NCBI RefSeq assembly: GCF_947496515.1
Contig: NZ_CANMDB010000002.1
Coordinates: 620,001 to 684,000 of the forward strand
Direction: 5' to 3'
Length of the DNA stretch: 64,000 nt
Source of the DNA: an uncultured Roseobacter sp.
GTDB taxonomy: Bacteria; Pseudomonadota; Alphaproteobacteria; Rhodobacterales; Rhodobacteraceae
Part shown: positions 13,079-59,314 of the stretch, one piece after another
Layout of the letters: every line of letters starts with the position of its first letter
Position numbering within the stretch: the stretch's first letter is position 1
Program-made: the position numbers and the translations under genes
Notes under the pieces: generated by a model
The model's database searches: none
What the model saw: only the letters and a program-made list of their open reading frames with translations
Told to the model about the DNA's origin: nothing

Positions 13079-13450
13079 ATGGTCCATGTCGTCGATGTTC
13101 ACGTAGGCAAGCGGATCCGGCAGCGGCGCTGGCTGGTTGGTATGACACAGCAGAAACTGGCCGAATGCGTCGGGATCAAGTTCCAGCAGATCCAGAAGTA
13201 TGAGACCGGTGCAAACCGCGTCAGCGCGTCCCGGCTCTGGGACATTGCCGATGCGCTGGAGGTTGATGTGGCGTTCTTCTTCGAAGGGCTCAAGACGGAA
13301 CCGTCGGCAGAGCCTGCGCAGGACGCCGTTCCAGCGGATATGCTGGGCGACAAGGAAGCGATGGATCTGGTCCGCTCCTATTACGCGATCCCGGAAAATC
13401 AGCGCCGTCGGCTTTTTGAGCTGGCGCGGGTGCTCAGCGACGTCGCCTGA
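13079..13450 (+). CDS. XRE-family helix-turn-helix regulator
   Basis: 123 residues. The helix-turn-helix spans residues 10-65: GKRIRQRRWLVGMTQQKLAE, then GIKFQQIQKYETGANRVSAS. This is the pattern of a widespread alphaproteobacterial group (PraR/NrfR-like) with a short C-terminal helical tail (EAMDLVRSYYAIPENQRRRL) that probably mediates dimerisation. GAGGT precedes the ATG. A long AT-rich leader suggests it is itself regulated. Targets unknown; quorum or nitrogen control has been reported for relatives. Confidence 0.85.
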   Translation: MVHVVDVHVGKRIRQRRWLVGMTQQKLAECVGIKFQQIQKYETGANRVSASRLWDIADALEVDVAFFFEGLKTEPSAEPAQDAVPADMLGDKEAMDLVRSYYAIPENQRRRLFELARVLSDVA

Positions 13451-13520
13451 GGTCACTTTTCGTCGCATCGTGAGTGGCAGTGCTCTTGCATCCGCTTGAG
13501 ACGACTGCCACCACACGGTC

Positions 13521-14333: not shown

Positions 14334-15679
14334 GCGCGCTGCTGCTGCGCGGGGCGGACCATCTGGTCACCATGGACGATGCAGACCGGGTGCTGCGCGA
14401 TGCGGATGTGCTGGTGGAGAACGGCCGGATCGCGGCCATCGGCGCCGATCTCGCGAGCAACGCGCCCGACCTGCCCGTGCTGGACGTTCACGGCTGCCTT
14501 GTCACCCCCGGTCTGGTCAACACGCACCACCACCTCTTTCAGTCGCTGACCCGTGCGGTACCTGCCGCACAGGACGCCTTGCTGTTTGACTGGCTGCAAA
14601 CGCTCTACCCGATCTGGGCGCGGCTGACGCCGGAGCATATCTACACCTCGGCGCAGGTCGGACTGGCGGAGCTTGCGCTGTCGGGCTGCACGCTCAGCAG
14701 CGATCACCTCTATCTCTTTCCCAACGGCGCCCGTCTGGATGACACCATCGCGGCGGCGGCGGAACTGGGCCTGCGGTTTCAGCCGACCCGCGGGGCCATG
14801 AGCATCGGGCGGTCGCAGGGCGGCCTGCCGCCCGATGATCTGGTGGAGCGGGAGGCGGATATTCTGGAAGACTGCCTGCGCGTCATCGACCGCTTTCACG
14901 ATGCCGGTGCGGGGTCCATGTGCCGGGTCGGTGTGGCGCCCTGTTCGCCTTTCTCCGTCAGCCGGGAGCTCATGCGCGACGCGGCTCTGCTGGCGCGGGA
15001 CAAGGGTGTGATGCTGCACACCCATCTGGCCGAGAACGAGGAGGATATCGCCTATTCGCTGGAAACCTTCGGCTGCCGTCCCGGCCAATACGCGCAGGAT
15101 CTGGGCTGGGTGGGGCGGGATGTCTGGCACGCCCATTGCGTCAAGCTCGATCCGGCCGAGATCGATCTTTTCGCCGCCACAGGTACCGGTGTCGCCCATT
15201 GCCCCTGCTCCAACTGCCGTCTGGGCAGCGGCATCGCGCCCGTCACCGCCATGCGTGCGGCAGGGGTGCCGGTGGGCCTAGGCGTGGATGGTTCGGCCAG
15301 CAATGACGCGGGCAATCTCGTGGCCGAGGCCCGGCAGGCGATGCTGCTGCAACGCGCCGCCCAGGGCGCCCGCGCCATGCGCCCCATGGCCGCGCTCGAG
15401 CTGGCGACCCGCGGTGGCGCGGATGTGCTGGGCAGACCCGAATGCGGGCGCATCGCGGTGGGCTGCCGTGCGGATCTGGCCGTCTGGGACGTGTCGGGCA
15501 TCGAGACCGCGGGGAGCTGGGACCCGGCGGCGCTTTTGCTTGCCGGACCCACGACCGTGCGCGACCTGATCGTGGAAGGTCGCCAGATCGTGCGGGACGG
15601 TCAGCTGACGACGCTCGACATGGGCGCGCTGATCGCCCGGCAAAACCGCATGGTGCAGGCGTTGCGCGCGGCGCTTTAG
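14330..15679 (+). CDS. 8-oxoguanine deaminase (amidohydrolase)
   Basis: 449 residues. Metal ligands of the amidohydrolase barrel are His66 and His68 (NTHHHLF), His230 (MLHTHLAENEED, with catalytic Glu235), His267/His269 (DVWHAHC) and Asp320 (GLGVDGSASND). CPCSNCRLGSGIAP is characteristic of the 8-oxoguanine deaminase branch related to TrzN/AtzB-type chlorohydrolases. It converts 8-oxoguanine to uric acid, a salvage or catabolic step. Overlaps hisN by four bases (ATGA). The guanine deaminase gene lies convergent 99 bp away, supporting a purine role. Confidence 0.8.
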   Translation: MSALLLRGADHLVTMDDADRVLRDADVLVENGRIAAIGADLASNAPDLPVLDVHGCLVTPGLVNTHHHLFQSLTRAVPAAQDALLFDWLQTLYPIWARLTPEHIYTSAQVGLAELALSGCTLSSDHLYLFPNGARLDDTIAAAAELGLRFQPTRGAMSIGRSQGGLPPDDLVEREADILEDCLRVIDRFHDAGAGSMCRVGVAPCSPFSVSRELMRDAALLARDKGVMLHTHLAENEEDIAYSLETFGCRPGQYAQDLGWVGRDVWHAHCVKLDPAEIDLFAATGTGVAHCPCSNCRLGSGIAPVTAMRAAGVPVGLGVDGSASNDAGNLVAEARQAMLLQRAAQGARAMRPMAALELATRGGADVLGRPECGRIAVGCRADLAVWDVSGIETAGSWDPAALLLAGPTTVRDLIVEGRQIVRDGQLTTLDMGALIARQNRMVQALRAAL

Positions 15680-45333: not shown

Positions 45334-45478
45334 GTCGCTGAACCCGTCCGTATCGTTTTGCTAGATTACGCTGTGCCACATCCGCCCGGCCCGAGCAACG
45401 CCGATGCGCTTGAATTTGCCGCAATGTGGCACTTGCAGCACCGTTTGTAATCCGTTAGCTGTGCGGCTGGACCACAAA

Positions 45479-45552
45479 GGCGAGTTGGCGGAGTGGTGAC
45501 GCAGCGGATTGCAAATCCGTGTACACCGGTTCGATTCCGGTACTCGCCTCCA
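45479..45552 (+). tRNA. tRNA-Cys (GCA), CCA encoded
   Basis: Cloverleaf: acceptor GGCGAGT with ACTCGCC (3' end TCCA), anticodon stem-loop GGATTGCAAATCC with anticodon GCA, T arm ACCGGTTCGATTCCGGT. CCA is encoded. A decayed integrase gene follows within 800 bp, consistent with use of this tRNA as an integration site. Confidence 0.95.
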
Positions 45553-46259
45553 TTTAAAGTCAATGACTTAGCCCATTTTTAGCGATAGCGGCAACGCGTG
45601 TCTAAATATTCTGTTTTTGTTCCGTTCCTTCTCGCCTCGCGGAAACCGGCCTTTCTCAGCTTGATTGGCGCAAGGATTCCGCTGCGCACTCTAAAGAAAA
45701 GAAAGGGAGCGGTTCGAGCGACTTGTTGATCGAACCATTGACCGCCGTGGCTGCTCACCTGGTTGCAGCGCAGCTAAAACCAGGTGAGCGGACACGGTCT
45801 TTTCGGGGTGACGTTATCAGCGGCGGAGCCGCCAGCTTTCTGCTGTGTTCCGGGCGGCGCGCTCTTGCGCGCAGTCCGCCGCCTTATCGGCGGACTAGCC
45901 CCTCGTCGATCTTCCGTGTCGCTCACTGGTCTCAGCACGGCTTGCCATTCGCATCACGCGCTGGCCAAGAGCATAATTTCGACACAGATCGACAACACCC
46001 GACGCCGACAACCGCGTACCCCCAAGCGGCTTGTTCGGCGAGCCCACATGACCCCCCCCCTTTGGCTATTCAGCTATTTATGCATTTAGTGACAACACCT
46101 CCGGTTTTCCGGGGCCTACACCGGGCGCAAAGTGATCCAACAAAAGTTCAAAAAGGGGATTCATCCGACGGCCTACATGGGATGCATTGAAACGATGCAG
46201 TGGATGATCTCGTCGCGTAAAAACAAACTGATAGAGCGTAAAGACTGGCTCGACGGAAT
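45553..46259. other. Gene-poor stretch between tRNA-Cys and integrase relic
   Basis: 707 bp with no supported gene. The first 100 bp are AT-rich; hairpins fill 45754-45895; a run of nine C lies at 46052-46060. Frames near 46132-46260 may be shifted remnants of the recombinase N-terminal part, but no residues let me confirm it. No second copy of the tRNA 3' end was found. Confidence 0.5.
45754..45895. repeat. Cluster of four perfect hairpins
   Basis: CTCACCTGGTT (45754-45764) with AACCAGGTGAG (45778-45788). GGCGG (45822-45826) with CCGCC (45829-45833). GCGCGC (45857-45862) with GCGCGC (45867-45872) around TCTT. GTCCGCCG (45874-45881) with CGGCGGAC (45888-45895). Four different perfect stems within 142 bp and no T-tract, next to the recombinase relic. 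Confidence 0.7.
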
Positions 46260-46709
46260 ATGGGCCGCTGCTCAAACTCACAGCGCATTGGAGATGTGCT
46301 CAACATGCGTTGGTCGCATATCGAAGATGGGGCGTTCTTCGTCAAACAGAGCAAAACGAAGAAAGAACTCTGGGTGCCAATCCTGCCCGAGCGTCAAGCA
46401 GCACTGGATGGTGCCAGCCGTCTTTCGGTGTTTGTCCTAACGAATGAGCGCGGAACCAACTGTTGGTCCTACAGAGGCGCATCAGCGGCTGTCAGACGCA
46501 TCAGAGAGCGTATCGGGGCATTGCCTACTATTCATGGCTGGCCCGACAACGCCGCCTGCGAGCTTCTGAAAGCGGGTTGCGGTGACGATCTGATTGGCGC
46601 TGTGACCGGGCAAAGCCCTGCAATGGTCCAGCACTACACCCGCAAGGTGCGTCAGCGTCTCAGAGCCGTCCAAGCACAGCAGATGCGGACTGAGCAGAAC
46701 CGCCTCTGA
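46260..46709 (+). pseudogene. Decayed tyrosine recombinase/integrase, C-terminal part
   Basis: 149 codons matching the catalytic domain of phage-type integrases: SQRIGDVLNMRWSHIEDG (first catalytic Arg), SKTKKELWVPILPE, and the terminal GQSPAMVQHYTRKV with the nucleophile Tyr. The usual HGLR box reads HGWP, so the second catalytic Arg is lost, and the ITGH His is Gln (VTGQ). The N-terminal core-binding domain is missing; a stop lies 21 bp upstream in this frame. It should be inactive. Lies about 700 bp past tRNA-Cys, so probably a relic of an island integrated there. Confidence 0.75.
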
Positions 46710-46901
46710 CCTCCTTGTTGAACCGCTGTATGAATTGACCAAAGCCCGCTGCGAAGCCGGTGAGTTTCATCGCGCGGTTGAAACGCTCTATGATCGGATG
46801 GATGTGCTAGCTCTCTCGTCCAGCGACTATGGCCTCCTGGGGCTGGCAACGAAAGCCCCATGCCCAAGGCCGGTTCAGATGGCAAAAGTAGGTTGCCGTG
46901 G

Positions 46902-47333
46902 CTAGTCCGGAGTGGTTTCGTGCAGCGCGACTGACAATACACCCAGCAGCACATCTCGATAGAGAAAGAAACCGGTTTCCAGTTCTGGCAGATTGTCGGG
47001 GAGTGACAGATCCTCTGGCACACTAAGATCAGCGGATTTCAGCAGTCGTTTCAACGTGTCGGCAAGGTCGCTTGGAACAACTTCGGGGATGTCCCCGTCC
47101 AGCATGAAGTCTTCGAATTCAAGCAGGTCAAACATCACCTGGCCGAATTTGTAGAGCGGATGCGGCTCCAGCAGTGTGAGCCACTTTTGTGCACGCACGG
47201 CATCATTGCGCCGGAACAGAACCCCGAGACGCGCCAAAGCACATGCCACACCGCGCATGCTGTCACTCAGCGGAACAAGCTTTGCGAGCAGGGCCGCGTC
47301 AGCTTTTGGAAGATCATCGAAAGAGAGCGCCAT
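46902..47333 (-). CDS. Hypothetical protein coupled to the polyprenyl synthase
   Basis: 143 residues, mostly helical, no signal peptide or membrane segment; MALSFDDLPKADAALLAKLV at the start and a Leu/Asp-rich end (LSVPEDLSLPDNLPELETGF). No family recognised. Its ATG overlaps the upstream stop by one base (TAATG), so it is translated together with the prenyl synthase and is probably a partner or regulator of it. Last gene of the minus operon; the DNA beyond contains an unassigned open frame at 46711-46905 and the integrase relic. Confidence 0.65.
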   Translation of the reverse strand: MALSFDDLPKADAALLAKLVPLSDSMRGVACALARLGVLFRRNDAVRAQKWLTLLEPHPLYKFGQVMFDLLEFEDFMLDGDIPEVVPSDLADTLKRLLKSADLSVPEDLSLPDNLPELETGFFLYRDVLLGVLSVALHETTPD

Positions 47334-48985
47334 TACAAAGCCCGTGTCGTGACGTAGTTGGAGACTTGTCTCAAAACCGCCTTGCCGGGCGTTTCCGGTA
47401 TCCATTTCAGATCCGCCTCGAATTTCTTCACCCCCGCATTTGCGAGCCGGTCTGCATGAGCGATGCTATAGGCGATGGAGTCCTCCTTTTGCATGGCCGC
47501 AAGCATTTCCAGCGCATAGTCAAAAGGTTTCTCAAGTCGTGGCAGGGCGTTGATCTCTGTCATGCGTTTTCGGGTGGCGTTGTCACACTCCCTGAAGAGA
47601 TGGATCATCATCACCGTTCGCTTTCCTTCGAGAAGATCGCCAAGCGCTTCCTTGCCGTAGACCTCGGTCTCGCCAATGAGATTTAGAATGTCATCCTGTA
47701 TTTGAAACGCGATCCCGGTCAGACGGAGGGGTTCGTTCAGGCGGTCCAGCAATGCCGGTTCCGTCACACCCGCGGCCACGGCGCCAATACGGCAGGGCGA
47801 CATGCACGTGTACCAGCCGGTTTTCTTTGTGCTCATCCGCGAGTAGTCGGCGTCACGGGATGGGACAAAGTTGCGACGGATCCAGCCAAGCTCCACTGCT
47901 TGCCCCTCGACTGTCTCGCGACACATGTGCAGGATTTCATGGATGATCCCCAGGGTGCGCGCCAGACCGATGGTCGCTAGGTTGGACAGGGCCATATCCA
48001 CGGCAAAAAGGTGCATCGCGTCGCCCGTGTTCACGGCCAGACCGATCCCGTGGGCTTCGTGCAGCGTTGGCAGACCGCGTCTGTGGGTGGATTCGTCGGC
48101 GATGTCATCATGGACAAGAAAGCCGTTGTGAAACATCTCCAGCGCCGAGGCCGCGCGGACGGCATCATCCAGCCGTCCCCCCAGGGCAAGGCAGGTCGCG
48201 ATCACCAGCGTGGGCCGTAGCCCTTTGCCCTCGCGCTGAACATAGTCCGTCATCAACGCATAGAGGTCTTTTTGCGGCGGCTTTTTGGGAATGATGCTCA
48301 GGATGTCGTCGACGACGAGCTTTTTGCACCGGTCCATCGTGACCATCAGGTCATTGTCGAAAATGTCCCGAGTGGCCTGCCAGCTTTCAGCCTCCCGCCC
48401 GTTCCAGAGCGACCGCGCCGGTGCAAGAACCGGTTCGTCGCGCGCCAGCATCTCCTGTTGCGCGGGGTGCCGCCGGTCGAGCCAGTCAAGCGCGGGCCAG
48501 CCTGCGTGATCCCAGTAGGCTGCACCGCGCGCCCGGGTCACGGGGACCTGCTCTGCCGCGCCGGACCAAAGCGCGCGCGTCTGATCTCTGTAGGCGCTCC
48601 AGATGGCCTGAACGCTGCGCAGGCCCGACGCGCGTTGCGACAGCAGTTTGAAACAGCGCCAGACCGCCAACAAGTCTTCCCGGGTGCCGCGCATGTCCAG
48701 ACTACGTTCCAGCGCCTGCTCGGACGGGCGCTGTGCCGCGTCAAACAACAGGTTCAACGTCCGGCGGTCAAAATGAACTTCGACATCACCAACGTCTTCG
48801 TCCTGTGCCGGTATGACATCCAGGGTGCTTTGCCGTGCCTGCATCAGCGAGGCTGTGCCATCGCCAAAGACAAGGTGCAGGCGAATCTCACCCAACTCAC
48901 GCGCGGCGGCGGCAATGATGGCTGGCGCGCGCTTTGACAGCGCTGCTACGGTATCCGCCAGGACATCCCCGCCGCTAATCGACAT
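47333..48985 (-). CDS. Polyprenyl-diphosphate synthase with N-terminal SCP2-like domain
   Basis: 550 residues. Residues about 15-115 resemble an SCP2 sterol/lipid-carrier domain (IRLHLVFGDGTASLMQ, VGDVEVHFDRRTLNLLFDAA, then a helix-rich end). A linker leads to a trans-isoprenyl-diphosphate synthase domain from about 240. Its marks are GKGLRPTL, first Asp-rich motif DDIAD at 293-297, KTGWYTC at about 388-394 and second motif QDDILN, where the last Asp is replaced by Asn435. The frame extends 32 codons upstream but MSISGG is preferred. The fusion suggests a carrier domain handing over or holding the prenyl product. Confidence 0.75.
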   Translation of the reverse strand: MSISGGDVLADTVAALSKRAPAIIAAAARELGEIRLHLVFGDGTASLMQARQSTLDVIPAQDEDVGDVEVHFDRRTLNLLFDAAQRPSEQALERSLDMRGTREDLLAVWRCFKLLSQRASGLRSVQAIWSAYRDQTRALWSGAAEQVPVTRARGAAYWDHAGWPALDWLDRRHPAQQEMLARDEPVLAPARSLWNGREAESWQATRDIFDNDLMVTMDRCKKLVVDDILSIIPKKPPQKDLYALMTDYVQREGKGLRPTLVIATCLALGGRLDDAVRAASALEMFHNGFLVHDDIADESTHRRGLPTLHEAHGIGLAVNTGDAMHLFAVDMALSNLATIGLARTLGIIHEILHMCRETVEGQAVELGWIRRNFVPSRDADYSRMSTKKTGWYTCMSPCRIGAVAAGVTEPALLDRLNEPLRLTGIAFQIQDDILNLIGETEVYGKEALGDLLEGKRTVMMIHLFRECDNATRKRMTEINALPRLEKPFDYALEMLAAMQKEDSIAYSIAHADRLANAGVKKFEADLKWIPETPGKAVLRQVSNYVTTRAL

Positions 48986-50030
48986 GCGCGCCTCCCGAGA
49001 ATTCCACGATCCCCCGTGTCTCGACCGCGAAGCGGCGGCCGTTGACGGACCCCTCCAGCAAGCACGCACCGACGACCTCATGCACGGAAAACGGATGCAG
49101 GCTGGTTTCCGAGGGGATCACGATCCGTACCGCCCAGTCCGCGTCAAAATCGAGAACCACGTGATCGTCGCCTTGCCGGGCGATAATCGCGAGCCTGCGG
49201 GGAATGGGTGACATCGCGCCTGTGCCCAGGAGGGTGGCCAAAGGCGGCGCTGTGCTGATCCGGTCACGATCCAACTCACCTCGCACCGCGAAACTGACAT
49301 TGCGGCGCGGAAAGTGGCGTATCATTCGACCGCGATGCCACAGCATCATGGAGGCCGTCGCCTCGCGGCAGTCGGCCTCGGGCCGGATGAAAGTAAACAC
49401 GCAAGCCCACTCGGGCGGCTCGTCGGGGTCGGCGCCCAGATCATTGGCAAAGCCAAAGACCCATTCGCCCAGATCGGGCCAGCCCCACCGCCCCCGCACC
49501 CGTTCATGGTAGCCAACCAGATCGACAGATTGTTCCGTGTCGGTGGTCCATGTGCCCTTTGCCAGCACGCCCGTTTCTGATTGCCACCGCAGATGCTGAT
49601 GGTTCGCAAAAAAGGCGCATTGGCTGGTGCAATTCCGGCTGGTGCGCTGCAGTTCAAGCGCCACTGCGGGGGATCCATTGGCCGAGGTGATGGTCAGGGA
49701 CTGGGGCGCGCGGTGCGCATGGGGGCGTGAAAACGCGCTCCATGGTGGCCGCTCCGTTCGGGCATTGAACTGGCTGGAGTGCCAGGGTCCATCGCCATCG
49801 TGCAACAGCAGGATGGTCGCGAAACGCTCGGTCCCCGGAGGCTCGTTTTCGCCGGGGCCCAACCATGAACTATTGGCGACCAGCGCCTTTTTCCCATCCC
49901 TTGACAGAAACGCATAATGAAGCCAGCGGCGGTCGATCGGATCGTTCAGGGGCGTGTCTGGAAATGGGCCCGCAGGCCCCAGTCCGAGCCGTGGTTTTGC
50001 GAGGCGGTTGGTGTACTCAAAGGAGGTCAC
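48975..50030 (-). CDS. AttH/CrtC-like (lipocalin-fold) protein
   Basis: 351 residues from GTG, soluble, beta-rich with many Trp (WLHYAFLSRDGKKALVAN, GRWGWPDLGEWVFGFANDLG). The end ETRGIVEFSGGAHVD resembles the closing strand of AttH/CrtC-type double lipocalin proteins. Some members add water to carotenoids (CrtC) and related barrels cyclise polyketide or terpenoid chains. Assignment is by pattern only. It overlaps the prenyl synthase gene by 11 bp, so both are made together, which supports action on a prenyl product. First gene of the minus operon. Confidence 0.5.
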   Translation of the reverse strand: MTSFEYTNRLAKPRLGLGPAGPFPDTPLNDPIDRRWLHYAFLSRDGKKALVANSSWLGPGENEPPGTERFATILLLHDGDGPWHSSQFNARTERPPWSAFSRPHAHRAPQSLTITSANGSPAVALELQRTSRNCTSQCAFFANHQHLRWQSETGVLAKGTWTTDTEQSVDLVGYHERVRGRWGWPDLGEWVFGFANDLGADPDEPPEWACVFTFIRPEADCREATASMMLWHRGRMIRHFPRRNVSFAVRGELDRDRISTAPPLATLLGTGAMSPIPRRLAIIARQGDDHVVLDFDADWAVRIVIPSETSLHPFSVHEVVGACLLEGSVNGRRFAVETRGIVEFSGGAHVD

Positions 50031-50171
50031 GCAGGCTCCGGTTCTTCAAATTGGTACTCAAATCTATGAAGTTATGGTATCATAGAGTGTGTTTTTTGCA
50101 GCACGATTTGAATTGTACGTTTTCATTTGTCCCCTGCGCCGAGCCTTTTGGCGTCATTGAAAGGGTAGATC
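50031..50171. promoter_or_regulatory. Divergent promoter region of the accessory cluster
   Basis: 141 bp between the two operons, much more AT-rich than its flanks. An inverted repeat GTACTCAAATC (50054-50064) and GATTTGAATTGTAC (50105-50118, with three extra bases) and the near-palindrome TATGGTATCATA around 50073-50084 are candidate operators that could control both sides. Confidence 0.5.
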
Positions 50172-51095
50172 ATGGCCAAGAAGGATACCCAGCCTGCTGC
50201 CGGAAAAAGTGGTAAGAAAAAGTCGGTAAAGGCCACCGAAACCAAACCCAAAAACGACGAAAAGCCCGGGTCCTACGACCCTCCCGCGCAGGCGAAAACG
50301 TCTCCATTGAATTCGCTTACCGGCGCAAGCCGGGTCGTACCTGTCCTGCGGCCAAATACTGCTGAAATCATCACGATCACGTCGCACCGCGAGTTGGCGG
50401 TCCGGTCAAAAGACATTGAAGCCCGCGTTGCCGAAAGCCCCGAATTCAGCGTCATGTTCTTGGCCAATCCCGTGCTGGCGCTGGAGGCTTACGGCATCAA
50501 GCTGTCCCGCGAGTTGCAACACCATGTTTTGAGCTCTCTGCGGCATCCGCCGGTCTTGCGCAAAAGACGCGAAGCGCTCGAAGCGCGCCTGGAGGAAGAA
50601 CTGGGCGAGACGGCACAGCCGACAACGCCTGAATGGATGGCCAATCTGGTCTTTGAGATACGCAAGATGGAACCGCGCCAGATCGGCAAGCGGGAACCCG
50701 CCTATCGCGCGCCCTTGAACGCGGCGTCCATCGAACGCTTGCAAAAGGCCCGGCCGAAAGGCGCCTCCCGCTACGGCTCTGACAAGCGTTTGCCGGTCCG
50801 TTTTACACTGCAGCTCGAAAAGCCCCGCTCGGCCATTCGGCGTATGGATCTGGACGCAGATGTTCCGGCACTCAAGAAAGCGACGCGAAAGCCTGCGCGC
50901 CTGTCGGTCGAGGAGGCGTGGTTTTACAAGGACGACCCGATTGTGCGTGACGCGGTCGAGCTGGGTCAGATCATGCAGCGTGGCTTTCCCTTTCGGACGC
51001 CTGCCGAATTCCGCAAGCTTGAAGCCGCCGAGACCGTGGACGGCTTCCGTCGCTTCATCCGCAACGTCCGGGTCAAACAGGTCAAAGCCCGATGA
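50172..51095 (+). CDS. Unknown protein with Lys-rich N-tail and NHLP-like segment
   Basis: 307 residues, basic, no membrane segment. Residues 1-45 are Lys/Pro/Thr-rich and disordered. Residues 83-125 (EARVAESPEFSVMFLANP, then VLALEAYGIKLSRELQHHVL) resemble the helical nitrile-hydratase-leader-like (NHLP) peptide pattern with NP, AL and GIxL spacing. The rest (150-307) is helical with many Arg/Lys. Its ATG sits 141 bp from the divergent gene. It is the first gene of a five-gene run with overlapping or short-spaced starts. Function unknown. Confidence 0.7.
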   Translation: MAKKDTQPAAGKSGKKKSVKATETKPKNDEKPGSYDPPAQAKTSPLNSLTGASRVVPVLRPNTAEIITITSHRELAVRSKDIEARVAESPEFSVMFLANPVLALEAYGIKLSRELQHHVLSSLRHPPVLRKRREALEARLEEELGETAQPTTPEWMANLVFEIRKMEPRQIGKREPAYRAPLNAASIERLQKARPKGASRYGSDKRLPVRFTLQLEKPRSAIRRMDLDADVPALKKATRKPARLSVEEAWFYKDDPIVRDAVELGQIMQRGFPFRTPAEFRKLEAAETVDGFRRFIRNVRVKQVKAR

Positions 51096-52828
51096 GCAAC
51101 ACGTCAAACTTTGACTATTGCGTGCAGTTCGGGATCGAGGCGATCCGCGAGATCTTTCACCTGGCGCTCAAGAACGAAGATATTTTTCCGCATAACTTGC
51201 CCCCCATATTGCGCGACTTTGGCGGTCACGCGGCGACCGTTCAGGTGCGTTTGCTGGATGATGCGGACGATCCCGCGGATCTCTCCTTTCAGGACGAAAA
51301 ACACATCCTGTTCGACCTGCCAATCGAGATCCAGATTGAAACACCGGATGCGCCGGACCCGGAACTCAGCCAGGTGACGCTGAAATCGACCGTTCAGGCA
51401 CCGGGTCGAGTGGCAAGTTGGCCGGTGGATGGTGAAGACCAGCTCGGCGTTGAATTTTCCGGCATCTCGGCCAGCGACGTTCAGGTTCCCGCACTGACCG
51501 GGTTGCCTGCTTTGGATGCCGGACGGTTCGAGGCCGCGCTGCACACGGCCTATGTGAACCTGCCGACGCGCGTCTTCGCTCTCGGGCCGAATGTTCTGAC
51601 GATCTATGACGGCACCCGAGACCCGGCGTTGCTGCCGCCAAATGCGCCCGGCGATCCCGAAATCAGTGCCACGCTGGAGACGCATGACGGCACCCAATAC
51701 CTTCGGGTCAGCTTGCCGCTCCACGCCAGTGTGCCCTCTGCTTTTGGCTTCGACGCTTACGGCACAGCGACCTTCTGGCGCGAGGTGCAGCAAGGCGAGG
51801 GGACGGTGCGCGTCCTCATCGGGACGGAACCGGACGAAGAGACGCTTGCGACGCAGATCGACTTTGACACGTCGAGCCTGGCAGAAGGGGCCGTTGTCGC
51901 GCAGCTGACGCCCTTGCTGGTGGGGCGGTTGGGCGATTTTGGCACCATCGAGGAACCGTGGTTTGATCAGGCGGCGGCGGTCAGCCTTCTTCAGGCGGAG
52001 ACGGCCGCCTACCTGCAACCTTTGCGGTTTCCGATGTATACGCCGTCGTCGGGTGATGACACCGTGACGCTGGCCACGCCGGTGGGGTTCTTGCTGGTGG
52101 CAACCGAAACCTTCGCGATCTTGATGAACCGCCGAACCGGCACCGAGGCGGATGATACCATCCCGGATGACTTTCGCGACAGCGAGGATCTGGCGCTTGC
52201 GCTCAGCCGCACGGTGCTGGACGAAACCATCGCGCAGGCCATCGCGGATGAGTTCCCGGGTCTCTCCGATAGCGGAGAACGCATTGAAACGGACGAAGGT
52301 GACGCAACGCTTCAATCTTTGAGCGTGACCCCCTCGGACCCCGGCACGCATGATGAGAGCGAAGGCCACTTGTGGATCAACGGTGAGGCGGAGGTTCATA
52401 TTGATTGCTGGCCGGACCCGGATATCAGTTTCGATGGGCCGATTTTTCTGCGCCTTGAAACGGTTGAAACCGACACGGAATGCAGCGCGACCTTCAAGGC
52501 AGAAATGGGAGACTTCGACGCCGGTCAAAGCTGTTGCGATGTGTTTGTCGATCTCATCATTCCGATTGTCGGATGGATCATGCTGGGCGTGATCGAAAAC
52601 ATGATCGACAAGGTCGGCGGTGAACTGGCCGAAGATTTTGCCGATGCGCAGGAACGTCAGATGCAGCCGATCCCGAATTTCGTGGTGGGCGTCGCGGAGC
52701 TTCAGGCCTGTCTGGAGGCGTGTCTGACCTCAAGCCAGGGATTGGTCTTGCCGGGCAAGCTTCGGATCAGACGCGAAGGGTTGAGTTTTGAAGATTTGGA
52801 AGCGGGGGGCCGTTTGCCGCGCCCTTGA
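51092..52828 (+). CDS. Large unknown acidic beta-rich protein, possibly lipid-binding
   Basis: 578 residues; start overlaps the previous stop (ATGA). Acidic, mostly beta strand by pattern, with N-terminal FDYCVQFGIEAIREIFHLAL, a Pro/Asp-rich middle and a C-terminal hydrophobic run CCDVFVDLIIPIVGWIMLGV (481-500) that may touch a membrane. Seven Cys, five of them after residue 460 (464, 481, 482, 540, 544). No signal peptide, so cytosolic. The strand-then-helix order at 425-560 could fit a TULIP-type lipid-binding fold, but this is only a guess. No family recognised. Confidence 0.7.
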   Translation: MSNTSNFDYCVQFGIEAIREIFHLALKNEDIFPHNLPPILRDFGGHAATVQVRLLDDADDPADLSFQDEKHILFDLPIEIQIETPDAPDPELSQVTLKSTVQAPGRVASWPVDGEDQLGVEFSGISASDVQVPALTGLPALDAGRFEAALHTAYVNLPTRVFALGPNVLTIYDGTRDPALLPPNAPGDPEISATLETHDGTQYLRVSLPLHASVPSAFGFDAYGTATFWREVQQGEGTVRVLIGTEPDEETLATQIDFDTSSLAEGAVVAQLTPLLVGRLGDFGTIEEPWFDQAAAVSLLQAETAAYLQPLRFPMYTPSSGDDTVTLATPVGFLLVATETFAILMNRRTGTEADDTIPDDFRDSEDLALALSRTVLDETIAQAIADEFPGLSDSGERIETDEGDATLQSLSVTPSDPGTHDESEGHLWINGEAEVHIDCWPDPDISFDGPIFLRLETVETDTECSATFKAEMGDFDAGQSCCDVFVDLIIPIVGWIMLGVIENMIDKVGGELAEDFADAQERQMQPIPNFVVGVAELQACLEACLTSSQGLVLPGKLRIRREGLSFEDLEAGGRLPRP

Positions 52829-52853
52829 ACGGATCAAACGATAGGAGAGTATC

Positions 52854-54272
52854 ATGCCGACAGTGAGAGGGTTCGTCGAAAAGCTGGGGGTAGGCCGCGC
52901 GGGTCTGGTCGAGGCGAGTGTCATCCAACCCAACGATGCAAGAGCCACCTACACAATTGCTGATCTGGATGCAGATCCTGAGCGTTTCAATGAACGGCTG
53001 TCGAAACTGGCCATCTTGCGCGATGCGATGGACCGCGCCGAACCGGTGGAGATCGACTTTACGCCGGATGACAATGACGGCCGGTCCATCGAAGCGGTGA
53101 TGCGGATCACGCGGGACGCCTTGCGGAACGCCCAGGCGTCTGCTGTGACCAGCGGCGTCATTGCCGTTCTAGGCGTGCAGCAACAGATCGAGACCGAGGC
53201 GCATCGCGAGGCAGTGGACCGCGTTGGGATGTTTCTGCTCACAGGCGGGGATCCGGTGTACTGTCAGATCAACCTGCAAGGGCCCGAGCGTGGTACTGCG
53301 CAGGCCATGTTCGAGGTGGCAAGCGCAGCCTACGCCGTCGGGGATGTGGTCACGGTCGCCTATGACACACAGAGAGGTGATATCCGCAGCATTGTCAGGG
53401 AGCATGGCCAAGGCGTTTCCGGCGCGGAACCCCAACCAGCCTTCTCCGCCTTCGTGGAAGAGATCGGTCACACGCAAATGCAAGGGCTGATGCGGGTGGA
53501 CATCACGACTGCGCCAGATTTCCAGGGCGATGGTAACATCGTGCCGCCGGTCCCCTTTACGCCCGAACGGCGGACCTTGGGTGTGATCTATCAATCCGCT
53601 GAATATAAACTCTTGGAGGCGGCCCTACGCGACAAGCTGCGGGTTGAGCTGATGACGACAAGACCTCCGCAGGAGGGGGACGACGATGGGCTGGACGATT
53701 TACCGCGGGATGACGCACCGGCGGACCGCGACGATACCGCCAGCATCGAAGACCGCGACACGGGCCGCCTGAACATGGCGCGGTTCGCTGCCGCCATGGA
53801 TACCCCGGGCCGCTCCACGCTTGCGTCGGAACGGCGCCTGCCCCAAGATGACCGGTCGGACATTTACATGCTGCGCGGTGTCATCCTTCAGCATGCGCTT
53901 TGCTCGGCCACACGACCCGTCTGGATCGAGGTCAACCGCCGCGCGCTCGACGTGGGACCGGATGCGGAGTGCGTCGAGGGTCTGCCCTCCAACGACATGC
54001 GGCCCCAGACCCTGCGCGATCTGAACCTGCCCTATCAGGCAGCGTGGATCGGCCATGGCTGCTTCAATCACGGTGTGTACCGCCTTCAGGTCGACACCGA
54101 TCGCGAGATCACCATTCTGGTCGACGGCGAGGAGATATGCCTGCACCGCGACGACCGGCAGGGGGTCATTTTCGGTCATGCCTGTCTTGAGGGCGATCAT
54201 ACCGTGCAGGTCGTCTTCAAAAATTGGCAGTGCAGCGCGAAATTTGATATTGATGTCTACAGGATCAGGTAA
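52854..54272 (+). CDS. Unknown protein with acidic linker and beta-rich C-domain
   Basis: 472 residues. The N-terminal part (1-130) has two helices (ERFNERLSKLAILRDAMDRA and RSIEAVMRITRDALRNAQA), the middle (130-265) is mixed, and an Asp-rich linker lies at 273-303. The C-terminal domain (335-472) is beta-rich with four Cys (350, 373, 403, 429) and more at 444 and 460. AGGAGAG precedes the ATG. Third gene of the plus operon. No family recognised. Confidence 0.7.
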   Translation: MPTVRGFVEKLGVGRAGLVEASVIQPNDARATYTIADLDADPERFNERLSKLAILRDAMDRAEPVEIDFTPDDNDGRSIEAVMRITRDALRNAQASAVTSGVIAVLGVQQQIETEAHREAVDRVGMFLLTGGDPVYCQINLQGPERGTAQAMFEVASAAYAVGDVVTVAYDTQRGDIRSIVREHGQGVSGAEPQPAFSAFVEEIGHTQMQGLMRVDITTAPDFQGDGNIVPPVPFTPERRTLGVIYQSAEYKLLEAALRDKLRVELMTTRPPQEGDDDGLDDLPRDDAPADRDDTASIEDRDTGRLNMARFAAAMDTPGRSTLASERRLPQDDRSDIYMLRGVILQHALCSATRPVWIEVNRRALDVGPDAECVEGLPSNDMRPQTLRDLNLPYQAAWIGHGCFNHGVYRLQVDTDREITILVDGEEICLHRDDRQGVIFGHACLEGDHTVQVVFKNWQCSAKFDIDVYRIR

Positions 54273-54284
54273 CAGGAGAGTTCG

Positions 54285-54782
54285 ATGGCTGAAGCAGATG
54301 CCGACAAAGAGGCAGCCCGCCACCTTGTGGTAAGCCAGCCCTGCAAGGAAACCTATGCTCTGTCCGGCAGTGAAGAGCGCGCCCCGATCCGCCACCGGGT
54401 GGCTGGTGACGTCGTGCACAGAACCGACGAGCCTGTGGTGCATATGCACCTGTGGAACGAGGAGTGCGTCGGCAAACTGGACCATCAGGTGCACGTCAAT
54501 GCGGACAAGGATAACCCGGTGAATGTCGCGCACCGTTTTCCCGACACCCATGCCCAGACCCACCAGATGCAGACGTCTCTGGCAGAGCCCGTGCATCACG
54601 CGTTGCAGATGCGGACACCCTTGCAGGTCCGTTTTTGCAACAGCTGGCAGGTCGCGTCGGACTACTCGGTTCAAGTCGGCTTGCGCGGCCGTCCGTTCCT
54701 CGACATCCGCCTGACCGGTGCGACAGTGGCAACGCCTCAGTCTTGCCCAGAGGATGAAAAGCCTGGACGCGACAAGGGATGA
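54285..54782 (+). CDS. Unknown His-rich small protein
   Basis: 165 residues with well over a dozen His, several in pairs or alternating (VVHMHLW, LDHQVHVN, THAQTHQM, EPVHHAL). Likely a beta-sandwich with metal-binding potential; the C-terminus is polar. No signal peptide. CAGGAGAG precedes the ATG, as with the gene before it. Stop overlaps the next ATG (ATGA). Fourth gene of the plus operon. No family recognised. Confidence 0.68.
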   Translation: MAEADADKEAARHLVVSQPCKETYALSGSEERAPIRHRVAGDVVHRTDEPVVHMHLWNEECVGKLDHQVHVNADKDNPVNVAHRFPDTHAQTHQMQTSLAEPVHHALQMRTPLQVRFCNSWQVASDYSVQVGLRGRPFLDIRLTGATVATPQSCPEDEKPGRDKG

Positions 54783-55339
54783 GCGATGAAAAGCAAAGTG
54801 CCAGTGCAGCGGCGGGGGCGCTGATCGACAGCGCGTTGAAACTGTCTGCATCCGTCGCACAGGTCGTCGCAGAAGCGGCAACCGGCAAGCCTCAGACCGC
54901 GCACCCCGGTGACACGCCGTTACAGACCATCGTTCGACATGGCACGACGGCAGCGACCGGCATCGTGTCAACGGTCGCCAGTGCAGCCCGGACGAACGCG
55001 CCGGAGACTGACGCCCCCCGCAGCGCGGGCGCCGTGCCATCCGTTTCTGCCGGTGCTGTTTTGCGGGTCCCCCTGTCCGTTGACAATCCGACTACTGATA
55101 CCATGTCGGATCTCAGCCCGATTTTGACGGAACTGGTCCATGCAGGCAGCGACGATGCTGAAGGGTGGGACGTGAGCTTTGATCCCGCAGTGCTGACCGT
55201 AGCGCCACAAGATTTCGAAAAACTGGTCGTGCGGGTGACCGTTCCCGACCACGCTCCGGAAGGTCCCGCATCCGCAAGCTTCTCTTTGGGGGAGGGCGCG
55301 GCTCCCGTGACAATCCGCTTTACCGTTCTGCCGGGTTAG
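54779..55339 (+). CDS. Unknown protein: Ala-rich helix plus beta-sandwich
   Basis: 186 residues. The first 70 form an Ala/Ser-rich, amphipathic helical region (ASAAAGALIDSALKLSASVA), a linker follows, and residues 88-186 are an Ig-like beta-sandwich (GWDVSFDPAVLTVAPQDFEK, VRVTVPDHAPEGPASASF) similar in pattern to NEW3-type domains. No signal peptide. Last gene of the plus operon; start overlaps the previous stop and its end overlaps the convergent phasin-like gene by four bases. Confidence 0.68.
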   Translation: MSDEKQSASAAAGALIDSALKLSASVAQVVAEAATGKPQTAHPGDTPLQTIVRHGTTAATGIVSTVASAARTNAPETDAPRSAGAVPSVSAGAVLRVPLSVDNPTTDTMSDLSPILTELVHAGSDDAEGWDVSFDPAVLTVAPQDFEKLVVRVTVPDHAPEGPASASFSLGEGAAPVTIRFTVLPG

Positions 55340-55710
55340 GCGTTGGCGATCGCCGTTCTTTGATCCCGGGGCGCCAGCACCTGATCGGTCAGATCCGTGC
55401 CAATCTTCACGCCAATGGCGACCGCGTCAAACCCCAGATCGACCACCCGGTGGGTCGAGTTGCGAAAGCTGTTGACAGTCGGGTAGCCGCGCACTTCCTT
55501 CAGCACCTCGGCCGAAACCGTGCGGTCGCGTAGATCTTCCGCCAGAGACACGGCAAAAGACAGCTCTTCGGCCGCAAACTCGCCAATTGAAAGCCCGGTA
55601 TCACGGACACGGTTGGCAAGCTCCCGGGCCGAGGCACGGACATTTTCGAGACCTGTCACGCGCGCACGCTCTGGCGTTTGATCGGTTTCTGCTTTGATAT
55701 CTTGAGGCAT
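55336..55710 (-). CDS. Phasin-like helical protein
   Basis: 124 residues, almost entirely helical with amphipathic repeats (ARELANRVRDTGLSIGEFAA, LSFAVSLAEDLRDRTVSAEV). Phasins coat polyhydroxyalkanoate granules or lipid inclusions; the pattern fits but no signature motif is diagnostic. Met 55710 chosen over a Met nine codons upstream. It closes the cluster, converging on the plus operon by a 4-bp overlap. No PHA synthase or depolymerase gene is near, so a lipid-inclusion coat rather than a PHA role is possible. Confidence 0.55.
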   Translation of the reverse strand: MPQDIKAETDQTPERARVTGLENVRASARELANRVRDTGLSIGEFAAEELSFAVSLAEDLRDRTVSAEVLKEVRGYPTVNSFRNSTHRVVDLGFDAVAIGVKIGTDLTDQVLAPRDQRTAIANA

Positions 55711-56263
55711 GGGACATCCTTTCGCTGCGCAAAGCATACCAGATTCTGCCGCGCATGTAACACGGGGATTTTCAGGGCGTGTTTTTGGTATCGTTTGCAG
55801 CCTCGCCCATTCTGCGGCATCTTGCGCTCAGCGCTGATGATGACCCACCAAAGGTCTGTGCTGACCGATGGTTCTACTGGTGGGTCTCGCAAAGGTCATC
55901 TTGACTGCTATCGGGTCTGCGAGGGTGCAACGGGAAAACGATCGCCGATCACCCCAGTGAGGGAGATGGGTCGGACTTGACCTGTCATTCGCGCTTACCC
56001 CCTCAGTTGGGCATTGCGCTGTCAAAATGATCTTGGGATGTAGTCACTCATAGAGATGAAATGTAATCCTGTACCTCCGTGGCACCCAAAACCGGTTGCG
56101 CGTCATGAAGCACACGACACTTCAGCTCATGACGTGATCCGTTCGGAACAGGTCTTTTGACCGGGCGGGCATGCTCCAAGCTTATTCTTGACTATTTTAC
56201 TTTGCTTTGCCTTCGGGCTCGATTAAGAAGGTGTGGTAAACCACCAGAAAAACGGAGACTGCC
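55711..56263. other. 553-bp intergenic region before the FecBCD operon
   Basis: No gene supported. It contains a perfect inverted repeat, CGTCATGA (56101-56108) and TCATGACG (56127-56134), about 130 bp ahead of the start at 56264, and a TTGACT element near 56188. These are candidate operator and promoter for the uptake operon. No Fur/RirA box was recognised. Confidence 0.5.
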
Positions 56264-57412
56264 ATGTCGTTCCAGGAACGCATCGTGGGCTTCGCAGGTG
56301 CTATAGCAGCCAGCGCGTTTTTTATCGCACCAGCAACTGACGCTCATGCAGAAGCTCTGACACTCACGGACATCGCCGGGCGGGAAGTCACGCTTCCTGA
56401 AATGCCCGACAAGATCATCCTGGGGGAGGGGCGCATGATGTATGCGGTCGCACCTTTGACGGATGGCAACCCCTTCGGAAAGGTTGTGGGCTGGAAGGAT
56501 GACCTGATCCTCTATGATCCTGACGCCTTCCGCAAGTTTGAGGCAGCTTACCCGGAAGATACCGCCAGAATGATCAATTTCGGCAATCCCTATGTAGGCG
56601 ACTTCAGCATTGAGGCAGTTCTGGAGGCCGGCGCCGATCTGGTGCTGCTGGACCTTGGCAATCTCTTCAAGGCCGAAGACACCGGCTTGATTGAGAATTT
56701 GGACAAGGCGGGCGTCGCCACCGTGTTCATCGACTTTCGCCAGAACCCCACGGAAAATGCCATTCCGTCCATGCTCATCCTGGGTCGATTGCTGGGCGAA
56801 GAGAAAGCCGCCGCAGAATTCATTGATTTCTACATCGCTGAAATGCGCAAAGTGAGCAATGTCGTTCAAAGTCTGCCGGTGGATGAGAAACCGCTTGTTT
56901 TCGTAGAAAACGCAGCGGGATGGCAGGCTGACTTTTGTTGCTGGACCTTCGGCAGTTTCAACTATGGCCGCTTTGTCGAACTTGCCGGGGGGGTCAATTA
57001 CGGCTCCACCAAGTTTCAGGGGTATCAGACCGAAGTGAACCTTGAAGGTGTGATCGCAGCCGATCCCGACGTGATTATCGGCACCGGCGCAAACTGGGCA
57101 GAAGCCAAACCAGAAGTGACCGCGACACTACTGGGCTATGACGCGAACGCTGAGGAAAATGCGAAACGGATCTCTGCTCTGGCAGAGCGCACCGGGTTCA
57201 AGGATCTGCGAGCGGTGAAAGAGGGCAAGATGCACTCGATCTACCACCAGTTCTACAACTCTCCCTACCATTTCATCGCGATCCAGCAGATCGCGAAATG
57301 GCTGCATCCCGACGAGTTTGAGGAGCTTGATCCGCAGGCGACATTCGATGAGTTGCACGCGCGGTTCATGCCCTATGACAACTCAGGTCAGTTCTGGCTC
57401 ACCGTGAACTGA
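56264..57412 (+). CDS. FecB/BtuF-type ABC substrate-binding protein
   Basis: 382 residues with a signal peptide to about residue 29 (AASAFFIAPATDAHAEA). The bilobal fold has the long central helix of metal-siderophore/heme binders (AEFIDFYIAEMRKVSNVVQS). Lobe motifs are IVNFG-like NFGNPYVGDFSIEAVLEA and DVIIGTGANWAEA. It contains two Cys close together in QADFCCWTFGSF, unusual for the family. Ligand unknown: siderophore, heme or a cofactor. First gene of a four-gene run ending in pseudoazurin. Confidence 0.85.
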   Translation: MSFQERIVGFAGAIAASAFFIAPATDAHAEALTLTDIAGREVTLPEMPDKIILGEGRMMYAVAPLTDGNPFGKVVGWKDDLILYDPDAFRKFEAAYPEDTARMINFGNPYVGDFSIEAVLEAGADLVLLDLGNLFKAEDTGLIENLDKAGVATVFIDFRQNPTENAIPSMLILGRLLGEEKAAAEFIDFYIAEMRKVSNVVQSLPVDEKPLVFVENAAGWQADFCCWTFGSFNYGRFVELAGGVNYGSTKFQGYQTEVNLEGVIAADPDVIIGTGANWAEAKPEVTATLLGYDANAEENAKRISALAERTGFKDLRAVKEGKMHSIYHQFYNSPYHFIAIQQIAKWLHPDEFEELDPQATFDELHARFMPYDNSGQFWLTVN

Positions 57413-57470
57413 GCGATTGTCGGCCCGGTGTCAGCCCGGGCCGCACGCCCTCCCTCAGATTGAGCATGCC

Positions 57471-58544
57471 ATGACAGATCAGACCGCCCCGTCGCCAACG
57501 GCGCAGGATATTGTTGCCGGGTATCGCCGCCGCTCGGCGCGCCGTCTGACACTGGTCGTGGGTGCCGCGGTCGTTCTTCTAGCCACCGTGACAACCGATG
57601 TCATTACCGGCCCTGCGGATCTGGGGTTTTGGCGAACCTTGCAAGTGATCCTGCAGCCTTCGGTGGCCAGCGTTCAGGAAGACGTCATCATCTGGGACTT
57701 GCGTTTGCCGACAGCCCTCATGGCGGTTGTCGTCGGTGCGATGCTCGGCATCGCTGGGGCCGAAATGCAGACGATCCTCAACAATCCCCTGGCGGATCCA
57801 TTTACCCTGGGTCTGTCATCGGCTGCGAGCTTTGGCGCCGCGCTGGCCATCGTCCTGGGATGGTCCGTGATCCCGGGTGTCGGCGGCCTCTTCGTGACGG
57901 TGAATGCCTTTGTCGTCGCGATGCTGACGTCGCTTGCCCTCTTTGGATTTACCCGCCTGCGCGGTGTGACGCCCGAGGCGATGATCCTCGTGGGGATCGC
58001 GCTGCTGTTCACCTTCAACGCGCTGCTCGCTTTTCTTCAGTACGGTGCGTCCGAGCTGCAACTGGCTCAGATCATCTTCTGGCAGTTGGGATCGCTGGCC
58101 CGTGCATCCTGGATGAAGGTGGGCATCTGCCTTTTTGTGCTCTTGCTGGTTTTGCCTTACTTTCTCAGCCGGTCCTGGGCGCTAACTGCACTGCGTATGG
58201 GGGAGGAAAAGGCAGCAGCCCTGGGCGTCAATGTCCCACTGTTGCGTCTCGGCGTTCTGGCGGGGGTCTCCCTTTTGTCTGCCGTTGCCGTCTCCTTTGT
58301 GGGTGCGGTGGCGTTTGTCGGGCTCGTTGGCCCGCATATTGCGCGGATGATCGTTGGCGAAGACCAGCGTGGCTTTCTCCCGCTGTCCGCGCTGGCTGGC
58401 GCGTTGATCCTGTCGGGCACGTCGATCGCGTCCAAAGCCATCACGCCGGGGGTGGTCTATCCGATCGGCATGATCACCTCTCTGATCGGGATTCCGTTCT
58501 TTGTTTCGCTGATCCTCAGCCAACCGAAAAGGCATTGGCAATGA
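57471..58544 (+). CDS. FecCD-family ABC transporter permease
   Basis: 357 residues with about ten hydrophobic helices. Family motifs: LRLPTALMAVVVGAMLGIAG, AEMQTILNNPLADPFTLGLS, the coupling loop GEEKAAALGVNV and GFLGLxxPHI-like FVGLVGPHIARMIVG. The start at MTDQTAPSP is preferred over an upstream in-frame Met. Imports the ligand of the binding protein. The stop overlaps the ATPase start by four bases. Confidence 0.92.
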   Translation: MTDQTAPSPTAQDIVAGYRRRSARRLTLVVGAAVVLLATVTTDVITGPADLGFWRTLQVILQPSVASVQEDVIIWDLRLPTALMAVVVGAMLGIAGAEMQTILNNPLADPFTLGLSSAASFGAALAIVLGWSVIPGVGGLFVTVNAFVVAMLTSLALFGFTRLRGVTPEAMILVGIALLFTFNALLAFLQYGASELQLAQIIFWQLGSLARASWMKVGICLFVLLLVLPYFLSRSWALTALRMGEEKAAALGVNVPLLRLGVLAGVSLLSAVAVSFVGAVAFVGLVGPHIARMIVGEDQRGFLPLSALAGALILSGTSIASKAITPGVVYPIGMITSLIGIPFFVSLILSQPKRHWQ

Positions 58545-59314
58545 CCCGGCTGTACACCGCCAATCTGTCTTTTGCCTACGGAATGAGACGCATCTTGAAT
58601 GACGTGACACTTGCTCCTTTGGTGGCGGGCAAGCTGACGGCGTTGATCGGACCGAATGCCTCCGGCAAATCGACCCTCTTCAAGGTCATCGCTGGTCTGC
58701 TCAGGCCCGTCAGCGGTCAGGTTTTTCTGGGCGACACCGATCTGGCGGATCTCGGGGCCCGCGATCGGCTGTCCCGCATCCGGTTCATGCCGCAGTTCTT
58801 CGCTGCCAACGCCGCGCTGACCGTGTTCGATGTGGTGATGATGGCTCAGAAACAGCTTCAGGGGTGGCGGGTCACATCGGATGATATGAACCATGTGGCC
58901 AAAGCATTGCAGAGCGGTGGGATTGGTCACTTGGCCGACGCCTACGTCAGCGAACTCTCGGGCGGGCAGTCTCAGATGGTGTCCTGCGTCCAGGCCCTGA
59001 TCCGTCCTGCGGACGTCTATCTTTTCGATGAGCCGACATCGGCACTGGATCTGCATCATCAACTCGCTGTTCTGTCACGCATTCGGTCCGCCGTCACGAC
59101 CCGGGGTGCGGTCGGCATTGTCGCACTTCATGACCTGAACCTTGCGGCCCGCTTTGCGGACCATCTGATACTGATCGGTCAGGGCAGGCTTCTGGCCGAG
59201 GGTGCTCCCCGCGATGTGCTCTACAGCGCTGAGCTTGGCGAGGCCTATGGCGTCGATATCACCATCACCAAAGGACCAAGAGAGGATCTAACAGTTCATG
59301 CTTACGCGCCGTAA
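58541..59314 (+). CDS. FecE-type ABC transporter ATPase
   Basis: 257 residues. Walker A GPNASGKSTL, Q-loop region RFMPQF, signature LSGGQSQMV and Walker B VYLFDEPTSALDLHHQ; the switch His is in ALHDLNLAARFADH. The signature lacks the usual R of LSGGQRQ (Ser here), a small but visible oddity. Drives uptake with the permease. Its last 17 bases overlap the pseudoazurin start. Confidence 0.92.
   Translation: MTRLYTANLSFAYGMRRILNDVTLAPLVAGKLTALIGPNASGKSTLFKVIAGLLRPVSGQVFLGDTDLADLGARDRLSRIRFMPQFFAANAALTVFDVVMMAQKQLQGWRVTSDDMNHVAKALQSGGIGHLADAYVSELSGGQSQMVSCVQALIRPADVYLFDEPTSALDLHHQLAVLSRIRSAVTTRGAVGIVALHDLNLAARFADHLILIGQGRLLAEGAPRDVLYSAELGEAYGVDITITKGPREDLTVHAYAP

Follow-up and report, generated by a model that had tools for sequence, protein, structure and literature searches.

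Layout and recurrence of the nine-gene block

We analysed a block of nine genes in a 64,000-nt stretch of the genome of an uncultured Roseobacter sp. (contig NZ_CANMDB010000002.1, positions 620,001 to 684,000), referred to below as the window. The genes form two divergent runs and were named by strand: m3, m2 and m1 on the minus strand, p1 to p5 on the plus strand and m0, a minus-strand gene convergent to p5 (Table 1). The nine genes, the two divergent runs, their overlaps and the 141-bp gap, all described in the initial annotation of the window, were present in the list of open reading frames (ORFs) and their coordinates. Distances between neighbours, in order from m3 to m0, are −1, −11, 141, −4, 25, 12, −4 and −4 bp: m1 and m2 overlap by 11 bp, p1 and p2, p4 and p5, and the end of p5 and m0 by 4 bp each, and the m2/m3 junction is a 1-bp overlap, TAATG, in which the m2 stop codon overlaps the m3 start codon. 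The longest ORFs of m3 and m2 start further upstream (at 47405 and 49081, respectively); the shorter starts were used, chosen for m3 to match its relatives and for m2 by judgement.

Table 1. Features of the nine-gene block and of the region upstream of it
Feature	Coordinates	Strand	Length	Description
tRNA-Cys	45479-45552	+		ARAGORN; likely integration site of the island
Tyrosine integrase remnant (C-terminal)	46260-46709	+		PF00589, 1.6e-7; context, outside the module
m3	46902-47333	-	143 aa	No family
m2	47333-48985	-	550 aa	Putative SCP2-like N-terminal domain and all-trans prenyl diphosphate synthase
m1	48975-50030	-	351 aa	AttH/CrtC-type double-lipocalin fold (predicted model)
Divergent intergenic gap	50031-50171		141 bp	Presumed site of both promoters
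p1	50172-51095	+	307 aa	No family; conserved FLANPVLALEAYGI-type segment
p2	51092-52828	+	578 aa	TULIP-like lipid-binding/transfer protein (predicted model)
p3	52854-54272	+	472 aa	No family
p4	54285-54782	+	165 aa	No family; His-rich conservation
p5	54779-55339	+	186 aa	Hydrophobic/amphipathic N-terminal half; possible Ig-like C-terminal domain
m0	55336-55710	-	~124 aa	Phasin-like in character only; convergent to p5

The block was searched for in 84,980 species genomes with a two-row alignment of p2. As a locus had to contain one of two short peptide patterns without mismatch, distant members may have escaped the scan, which yielded seven further loci. These lie in Rhodobacter sp. SW2 (L007), a metagenome-assembled genome (MAG) of Sphingomonadaceae (L006), an alphaproteobacterial MAG (L011), three gammaproteobacterial MAGs (L008, L009 and L012) and a contig binned as Candidatus Brocadia (L010). 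Five of the seven carry all nine genes in identical order and strand (tblastn with the window proteins). The L008 locus has eight genes; its m0 lies on the contig that holds p5 but ~120 kb away, next to transposase-like ORFs recognized by eye. The L010 contig carries six genes, p1-p5 and m0; their flanks hold a DDE transposase (PF01609) and another transposase-like ORF (identified by eye; no Pfam match at 0.001).

Since the copies in L008, L009 and L012 are mostly 80-95% alike, they were counted as one lineage, and the block is carried by about five lineages. Gene order and strands are shared at about 24-76% protein identity, a recurrence that exceeds chance. The initial annotation treated the nine genes as a single system, and the co-occurrence check did find them together in other genomes. 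The distances between copies covary across the nine families (Spearman 0.65-0.95, 6 to 28 pairs), as predicted for joint inheritance, but shared species history gives the same covariation. The block is rare. In samples of 295 genomes from the family, 385 from the class and 398 from the phylum, p2 was found in two, one and one genomes, respectively, and m1 in one of 244 genomes from the order (the counts include the genome of the window and the samples overlap). No description of the nine-gene block was found in the titles and abstract openings of the literature matches listed, in which subscription journals are mostly not covered.

The 4-bp overlap of p1 and p2 is retained in all seven loci measured (the window included and the Brocadia-binned contig outside the set); in the Brocadia-binned contig, p1 and p2 are 22 bp apart. 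The divergent gap between m1 and p1 ranges from 40 to 554 bp across seven loci, the window included, with script-chosen p1 starts. A promoter region shared by both runs, as proposed for this gap, was not borne out. A consensus scan of 46000-56300 returned 3 sites vs 2.3 expected after shuffling, and no sigma-70-like consensus site within the gap. Neither internal repeats nor mutual homology of any weight were detected among the protein families of the block, and simple hydropathy analysis detected no clear N-terminal hydrophobic or export signal in the nine window proteins.

Families and predicted folds of the encoded proteins

The C-terminal part of m2 matched PF00348 (E-value 1.6e-55; 188.5 bits vs a cut-off of 27), and its closest solved relative in a PDB profile search was the geranylgeranyl diphosphate (GGPP) synthase 1wmw (7.1e-60), which we take to be the Thermus-type enzyme. 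The first Asp-rich motif (FARM, DDIAD) was present in all six m2 sequences examined and the second (SARM, DDILN) in five; in this set the SW2 sequence is cut by a split reading frame (located at 12426-14392 of L004 in the draft assembly) and the L006 sequence is left out. With the profile match and both motifs, m2 belongs to the all-trans prenyl diphosphate synthases, and the prenyl synthesis assigned to it in the initial annotation is well founded. No chain-length class (GGPP, farnesyl diphosphate, octaprenyl, etc.) could be assigned, all 16 NCBIfam matches being below their cut-offs.

The second-best of these NCBIfam matches was the model of polyprenyl transferase cargo of family 2 encapsulins (1.4e-47). 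Operons of this kind, known with such cargo (PMC8346489), likewise hold a prenyl synthase-type enzyme in a small operon, and several family-less proteins of the block could build a shell; the block might then encode a proteinaceous compartment packing its prenyl synthase. We consider this quite improbable: the cargo model scored 162.6 vs a 450-bit cut-off and was outscored by the IdsA model, and unlike the family 2 encapsulin operons, the block has no encapsulin shell match among its nine proteins (Pfam, NCBIfam).

The N-terminal part of m2 (approximately residues 8-115) is predicted, with moderate confidence, to be an SCP2-like domain fused to the synthase. Hhalign gave a probability of 93.3% for a pool of 17 PF14864 hits, of which 9 score under the family cut-off. 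In Pfam, this part matched only Alkyl_sulf_C (0.048, in one of seven members), and no SCP2 chain appeared in the PDB profile search of this part. Outside the block, an SCP2-like domain was found, besides the copy of the window, as a single borderline match (E-value 1e-3) in 219 genomes; it was rejected as a chance match, antisense to a long frame that is PriA-like by eye. The adjacent gene m3, present in six of the seven other loci at 39-47% identity, had Pfam matches of 0.0063 and 0.02 only, each in one of seven members. The idea that m3 is one of the small subunits known from heteromeric prenyl synthases was rejected, as m3 had no PDB relative of weight.

Sequence searches with m1 (Pfam, NCBIfam and others) returned nothing of weight, and none of the seven members matched Pfam families, CrtC included; its identity in six other genomes is 54-76%, and it contains an invariant Y-H-E segment. 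The AlphaFold2 (AF2) model of m1, of fair quality (predicted local distance difference test, pLDDT, 77.3; predicted template modelling score, pTM, 0.81), matched in Foldseek the AttH-type structure 2ich (E-value 6.2e-11, probability 1.00, template modelling (TM) scores 0.57/0.62). All 25 matches below 1e-3 were AttH, pericyclases (Fsa2, CghA and Phm7), kievitone hydratase or 25-phosphosteroid lyase, and the predicted model shares the double-lipocalin fold of these proteins. A comparison with the CrtC family was made with 22 proteins (34 listed matches reduced to 24 loci, from which one too short and one with a 16-residue frame were dropped), and hhalign gave a probability of 1.7%. Of the AttH/CrtC-like identity first given to m1, the fold of the predicted model therefore stands, while kinship with CrtC by sequence was rejected. 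Unlike the AttH/CrtC enzymes, m1 is joined to a prenyl synthase and six family-less proteins and lacks a CrtC sequence match.

CrtC and kievitone hydratase add water to terminal isoprene units, and 25-phosphosteroid lyase releases phosphate from a tertiary carbon, C25, in the side chain of an isoprenoid. The predicted fold makes it likely that m1 modifies or binds a prenyl compound and, because its fold neighbours act in this way, our best guess for its chemistry is hydration or dehydration of an isoprenoid chain end. The structure 2ich is that of NE1406, which has been tied to isoprenoid metabolism via CrtC (PMC2954199). When the 25-phosphosteroid pathway was described, the lyase gene was not yet known (PMC8449060).

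The AF2 model of p2, built from seven of the eight known copies, is good only over approximately residues 10-320. All eight PDB matches found by Foldseek below 1e-3 were OrfX2 (or a chain of an OrfX2 complex), LBP, BPI and CETP; JHBP, SPLUNC1, an SMP domain and Mdm12 followed at lower ranks. At the fold level the model bears its best resemblance, at low TM-scores, to TULIP proteins, whose bacterial members include P47/OrfX2, YceB, DUF4403, DUF2140 and DUF2993 (PMC6791001). Unlike these, p2 has no Pfam match and sits in a block with prenyl synthesis: none of seven members matched P47/OrfX2 or any Pfam TULIP family, the only match being DUF7407 at 0.13 in one member. All eight copies have a strongly hydrophobic segment near residues 484-502, after a CC motif. 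In the Brocadia-binned contig p2 (2835-5027) has ~150 additional residues and seems to contain an internal duplication.

With OrfX2 as the top fold match of p2, and with a TULIP-like protein lacking an obvious signal and located amid proteins of no family, as in orfX-p47 clusters, the block could be read as encoding secreted proteins that bind lipid in an extracellular accessory role. Such a role seems very improbable, given that p2 has no Pfam match to the OrfX/P47 families, an isoprenoid synthesis gene lies in the block and no toxin family was matched by the nine proteins; the word 'prenyl' was not found in the main text of the orfX/TULIP literature examined.

Genes p1, p3, p4 and p5 are each present in all seven other loci. 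p1 is 33-52% identical to its relatives (best Pfam match 0.06, in one of eight members). p3 is 37-54% identical, with best matches of 0.026 in PDB and 0.14 in Pfam (one of eight members). p4, 42-64% identical, has many conserved His residues, a core HHALQMRTPLQ-RFCN and no family of weight in Pfam or PDB profile searches; within the group of p1, p3, p4, m3 and m0, PDB profile searches covered p3, p4 and m3. An occurrence of p4 in viral contigs was rejected, as 28 pattern matches included no true relative. p5 is 24-52% identical; its N-terminal half is hydrophobic or amphipathic by hydropathy, and a possible immunoglobulin (Ig)-like domain may lie at its C-terminus (FixG_C, 0.0031 in one of eight members).

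m0 is present in six of the seven other loci, the seventh genome carrying it at the distance from p5 given above. Its best Pfam match was 0.054 in one of six members, and no family of weight was found. Outside the block, marginal matches (E-value ~7e-4) were detected in 2 of 198 genomes of the family (L075 and L076), besides the genome of the window and SW2. The m0 contig sequence of L009 (10641-11100) has an in-frame stop in the MAG. The initial annotation called m0 phasin-like; no phasin family profile matched, and the term applies to m0 and p5 in character only. The two proteins share amphipathic or hydrophobic stretches with the coats of phasin-covered granules; unlike such granules, the block has neither a phasin match nor a match to polyhydroxyalkanoate synthesis among its nine proteins.

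Linkage to ispH and a candidate role in prenyl-lipid handling

Comparison of flanks across the loci revealed a tenth gene, LytB/IspH (PF02401), adjoining m0 or fused to it in five of the seven other genomes. In L006, IspH and m0 form one open frame (13319-14695); to our knowledge, a fusion of IspH to a phasin-like tail has no prior description. In L011, ispH lies directly upstream of m0 on the same strand, and their longest ORFs overlap by 4 bp. In L009, L012 and the L008 genome ispH is divergent beside m0, and in the last of these m0 and ispH have stayed paired despite the ~120 kb that separate them from p5. Each of the five linked genomes has two or three ispH copies, against a single copy in SW2, in the Brocadia MAG and in the genome of the window. 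IspH supplies isopentenyl diphosphate (IPP) and dimethylallyl diphosphate (DMAPP). As the isoprenoid theme had been proposed from m2 beforehand, the ispH link is independent support for it.

We lean somewhat towards reading the block as a module, horizontally mobile and probably cytosolic, whose proteins would make a prenyl lipid and hold it in protein-bound form. In this scheme IspH, encoded by an extra copy in some carriers and by the single genomic copy in the window's genome, would provide IPP and DMAPP, which the synthase half of m2 would elongate to a prenyl diphosphate, with m3 as a translationally coupled partner of the synthase. The fused SCP2-like domain might take up the hydrophobic chain, and m1 might alter it at the terminal isoprene unit, with gain or loss of water (or phosphate) as the most likely reaction. 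p2 would bring the product to a membrane or other lipid surface, or collect it there, and p5 and m0 could serve at this surface as surface or assembly proteins. The capture of the chain is modelled on UbiJ, whose SCP2 domain was proposed to hold the polyisoprenoid tail, with UbiJ-UbiK2 as the membrane interface (PMC9499169).

Several observations weigh against the prenyl-lipid module. The SCP2 assignment depends on pooling: with three subsets of the PF14864 hits, the hhalign probability was 45.8, 12.6 and 3.6%, so that of the proposed SCP2-prenyl synthase fusion the synthase half holds firmly and the SCP2-like half moderately. In L008, L009 and L012, m2 has a hydrophobic N-terminus at the chosen start (1.8-2.4), which could be an anchor or the result of a wrong start. 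The top eight matches of p2, all to TULIP structures, have low TM-scores (0.13-0.16 when referred to the query), the highest target-normalized TM-score among the 50 matches listed (0.37) belongs to a chain of Aha1, which is not known as a TULIP protein, and residues beyond ~410 were modelled below pLDDT 50; because of the low scores and the Aha1 match, we hold a TULIP fold of p2 to be quite probable and not more. m1 has no detectable sequence homology to CrtC, and no terpene cyclase, aromatic prenyltransferase or phosphatase was matched among the nine proteins (Pfam, NCBIfam). No ispH adjoins the block in the window, SW2 or L010. m1 was not found in the Brocadia MAG, and m1-m3 are missing from its p1-p5/m0 contig, which may mean that the block can do without its synthetic arm or that the MAG is incomplete.

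A more elaborate form of the module is possible, though we propose it tentatively: a self-contained, mobile prenyl-lipid organelle or carrier particle, in which the chain would be made, captured by the SCP2-like domain, altered by m1 and loaded by p2 into a body with a surface of p1, p3, p4, p5 and m0. If so, distant proteobacteria would gain a lipid missing from their relatives. The coated cytosolic body for storage put forward in the initial annotation likewise stays a hypothesis.

The block could also be a terpenoid natural-product cluster, with m2 making the chain, m1 cyclizing or hydrating it, the other proteins binding or tolerating the product and a small molecule being exported. In L012 an ABC ATPase and an ABC-2 permease (Pfam) do come after ispH; close relatives occur in L009, and the L008 genome has ORFs that look similar by eye. 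Pericyclases are among the fold neighbours of m1, and the distribution is sporadic. We nevertheless regard such a cluster as unlikely, since the exporter is seen in just these three gammaproteobacterial genomes, themselves close relatives, none of the nine proteins matched a terpene cyclase, P450 or transferase, and three candidate lipid-binding folds would exceed the needs of a small product.

Like the Ubi metabolon (UbiJ, UbiK), the prenyl-lipid module, as read from genes, would handle a polyprenyl lipid in soluble, cytosolic form with an SCP2-type domain. Unlike the Ubi metabolon, the block has no quinone-ring enzyme match among its nine proteins (Pfam, NCBIfam), its SCP2-like domain is fused to the chain-making enzyme, and AttH-fold and TULIP-like partners are added. 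Because each system compared fails in a defining feature, the block appears to be a system of a new kind, neither an encapsulin nor a Ubi metabolon, for which we propose the chemistry given above.

For six of the nine proteins, no aligned relative has a Pfam match better than E-value 0.003, and two more (m1 and p2) were placed only by the folds of predicted models; the proteins are nonetheless kept as a unit with a prenyl synthase and often with an extra IspH. If the proposed module is real, bacterial lipid synthesis would be joined directly to three lipid-binding folds, SCP2, double lipocalin and TULIP, a combination of which we know no description in one system, and a bacterial TULIP-type protein would gain a definite substrate class. 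Rhodobacter sp. SW2 is a named strain with the block, which makes a test practical.

Genomic setting

In the window the block follows the tRNA-Cys gene and the integrase remnant (Table 1). The neighbouring gene pimt was present in each of the 19 genomes searched within the genus, that of the window among them. When the 18 other genomes were searched, similarity to the window ended at 45553-45627, at or just past tRNA-Cys, in 10 of the 11 loci compared, and at 45442 in the eleventh. Because same-genus similarity stops at the tRNA gene, the block likely sits on an integrative island, and 45479-46709 is likely an integration hotspot. Carriage of m1 on plasmids and of p2 on plasmids or phages was considered and rejected, as p2 was absent from the plasmid and phage records searched and m1 from the plasmid records.

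Genes gathered behind a tRNA-Cys gene and an integrase remnant might be unrelated passengers of a genomic island, with no joint function. This we consider extremely improbable, as it is already contradicted by the order and strands shared across different classes at 24-58% identity to the window proteins.

After the block, 56264-59314 encodes a Peripla_BP_2 binding protein and a FecCD permease (Pfam) and then an ATPase-like ORF (by eye), a metal-chelate uptake system that perhaps belongs to the same island. The GC content is 0.56-0.65 in positions 38000-64000 of the window vs 0.60-0.69 in the first 38 kb.

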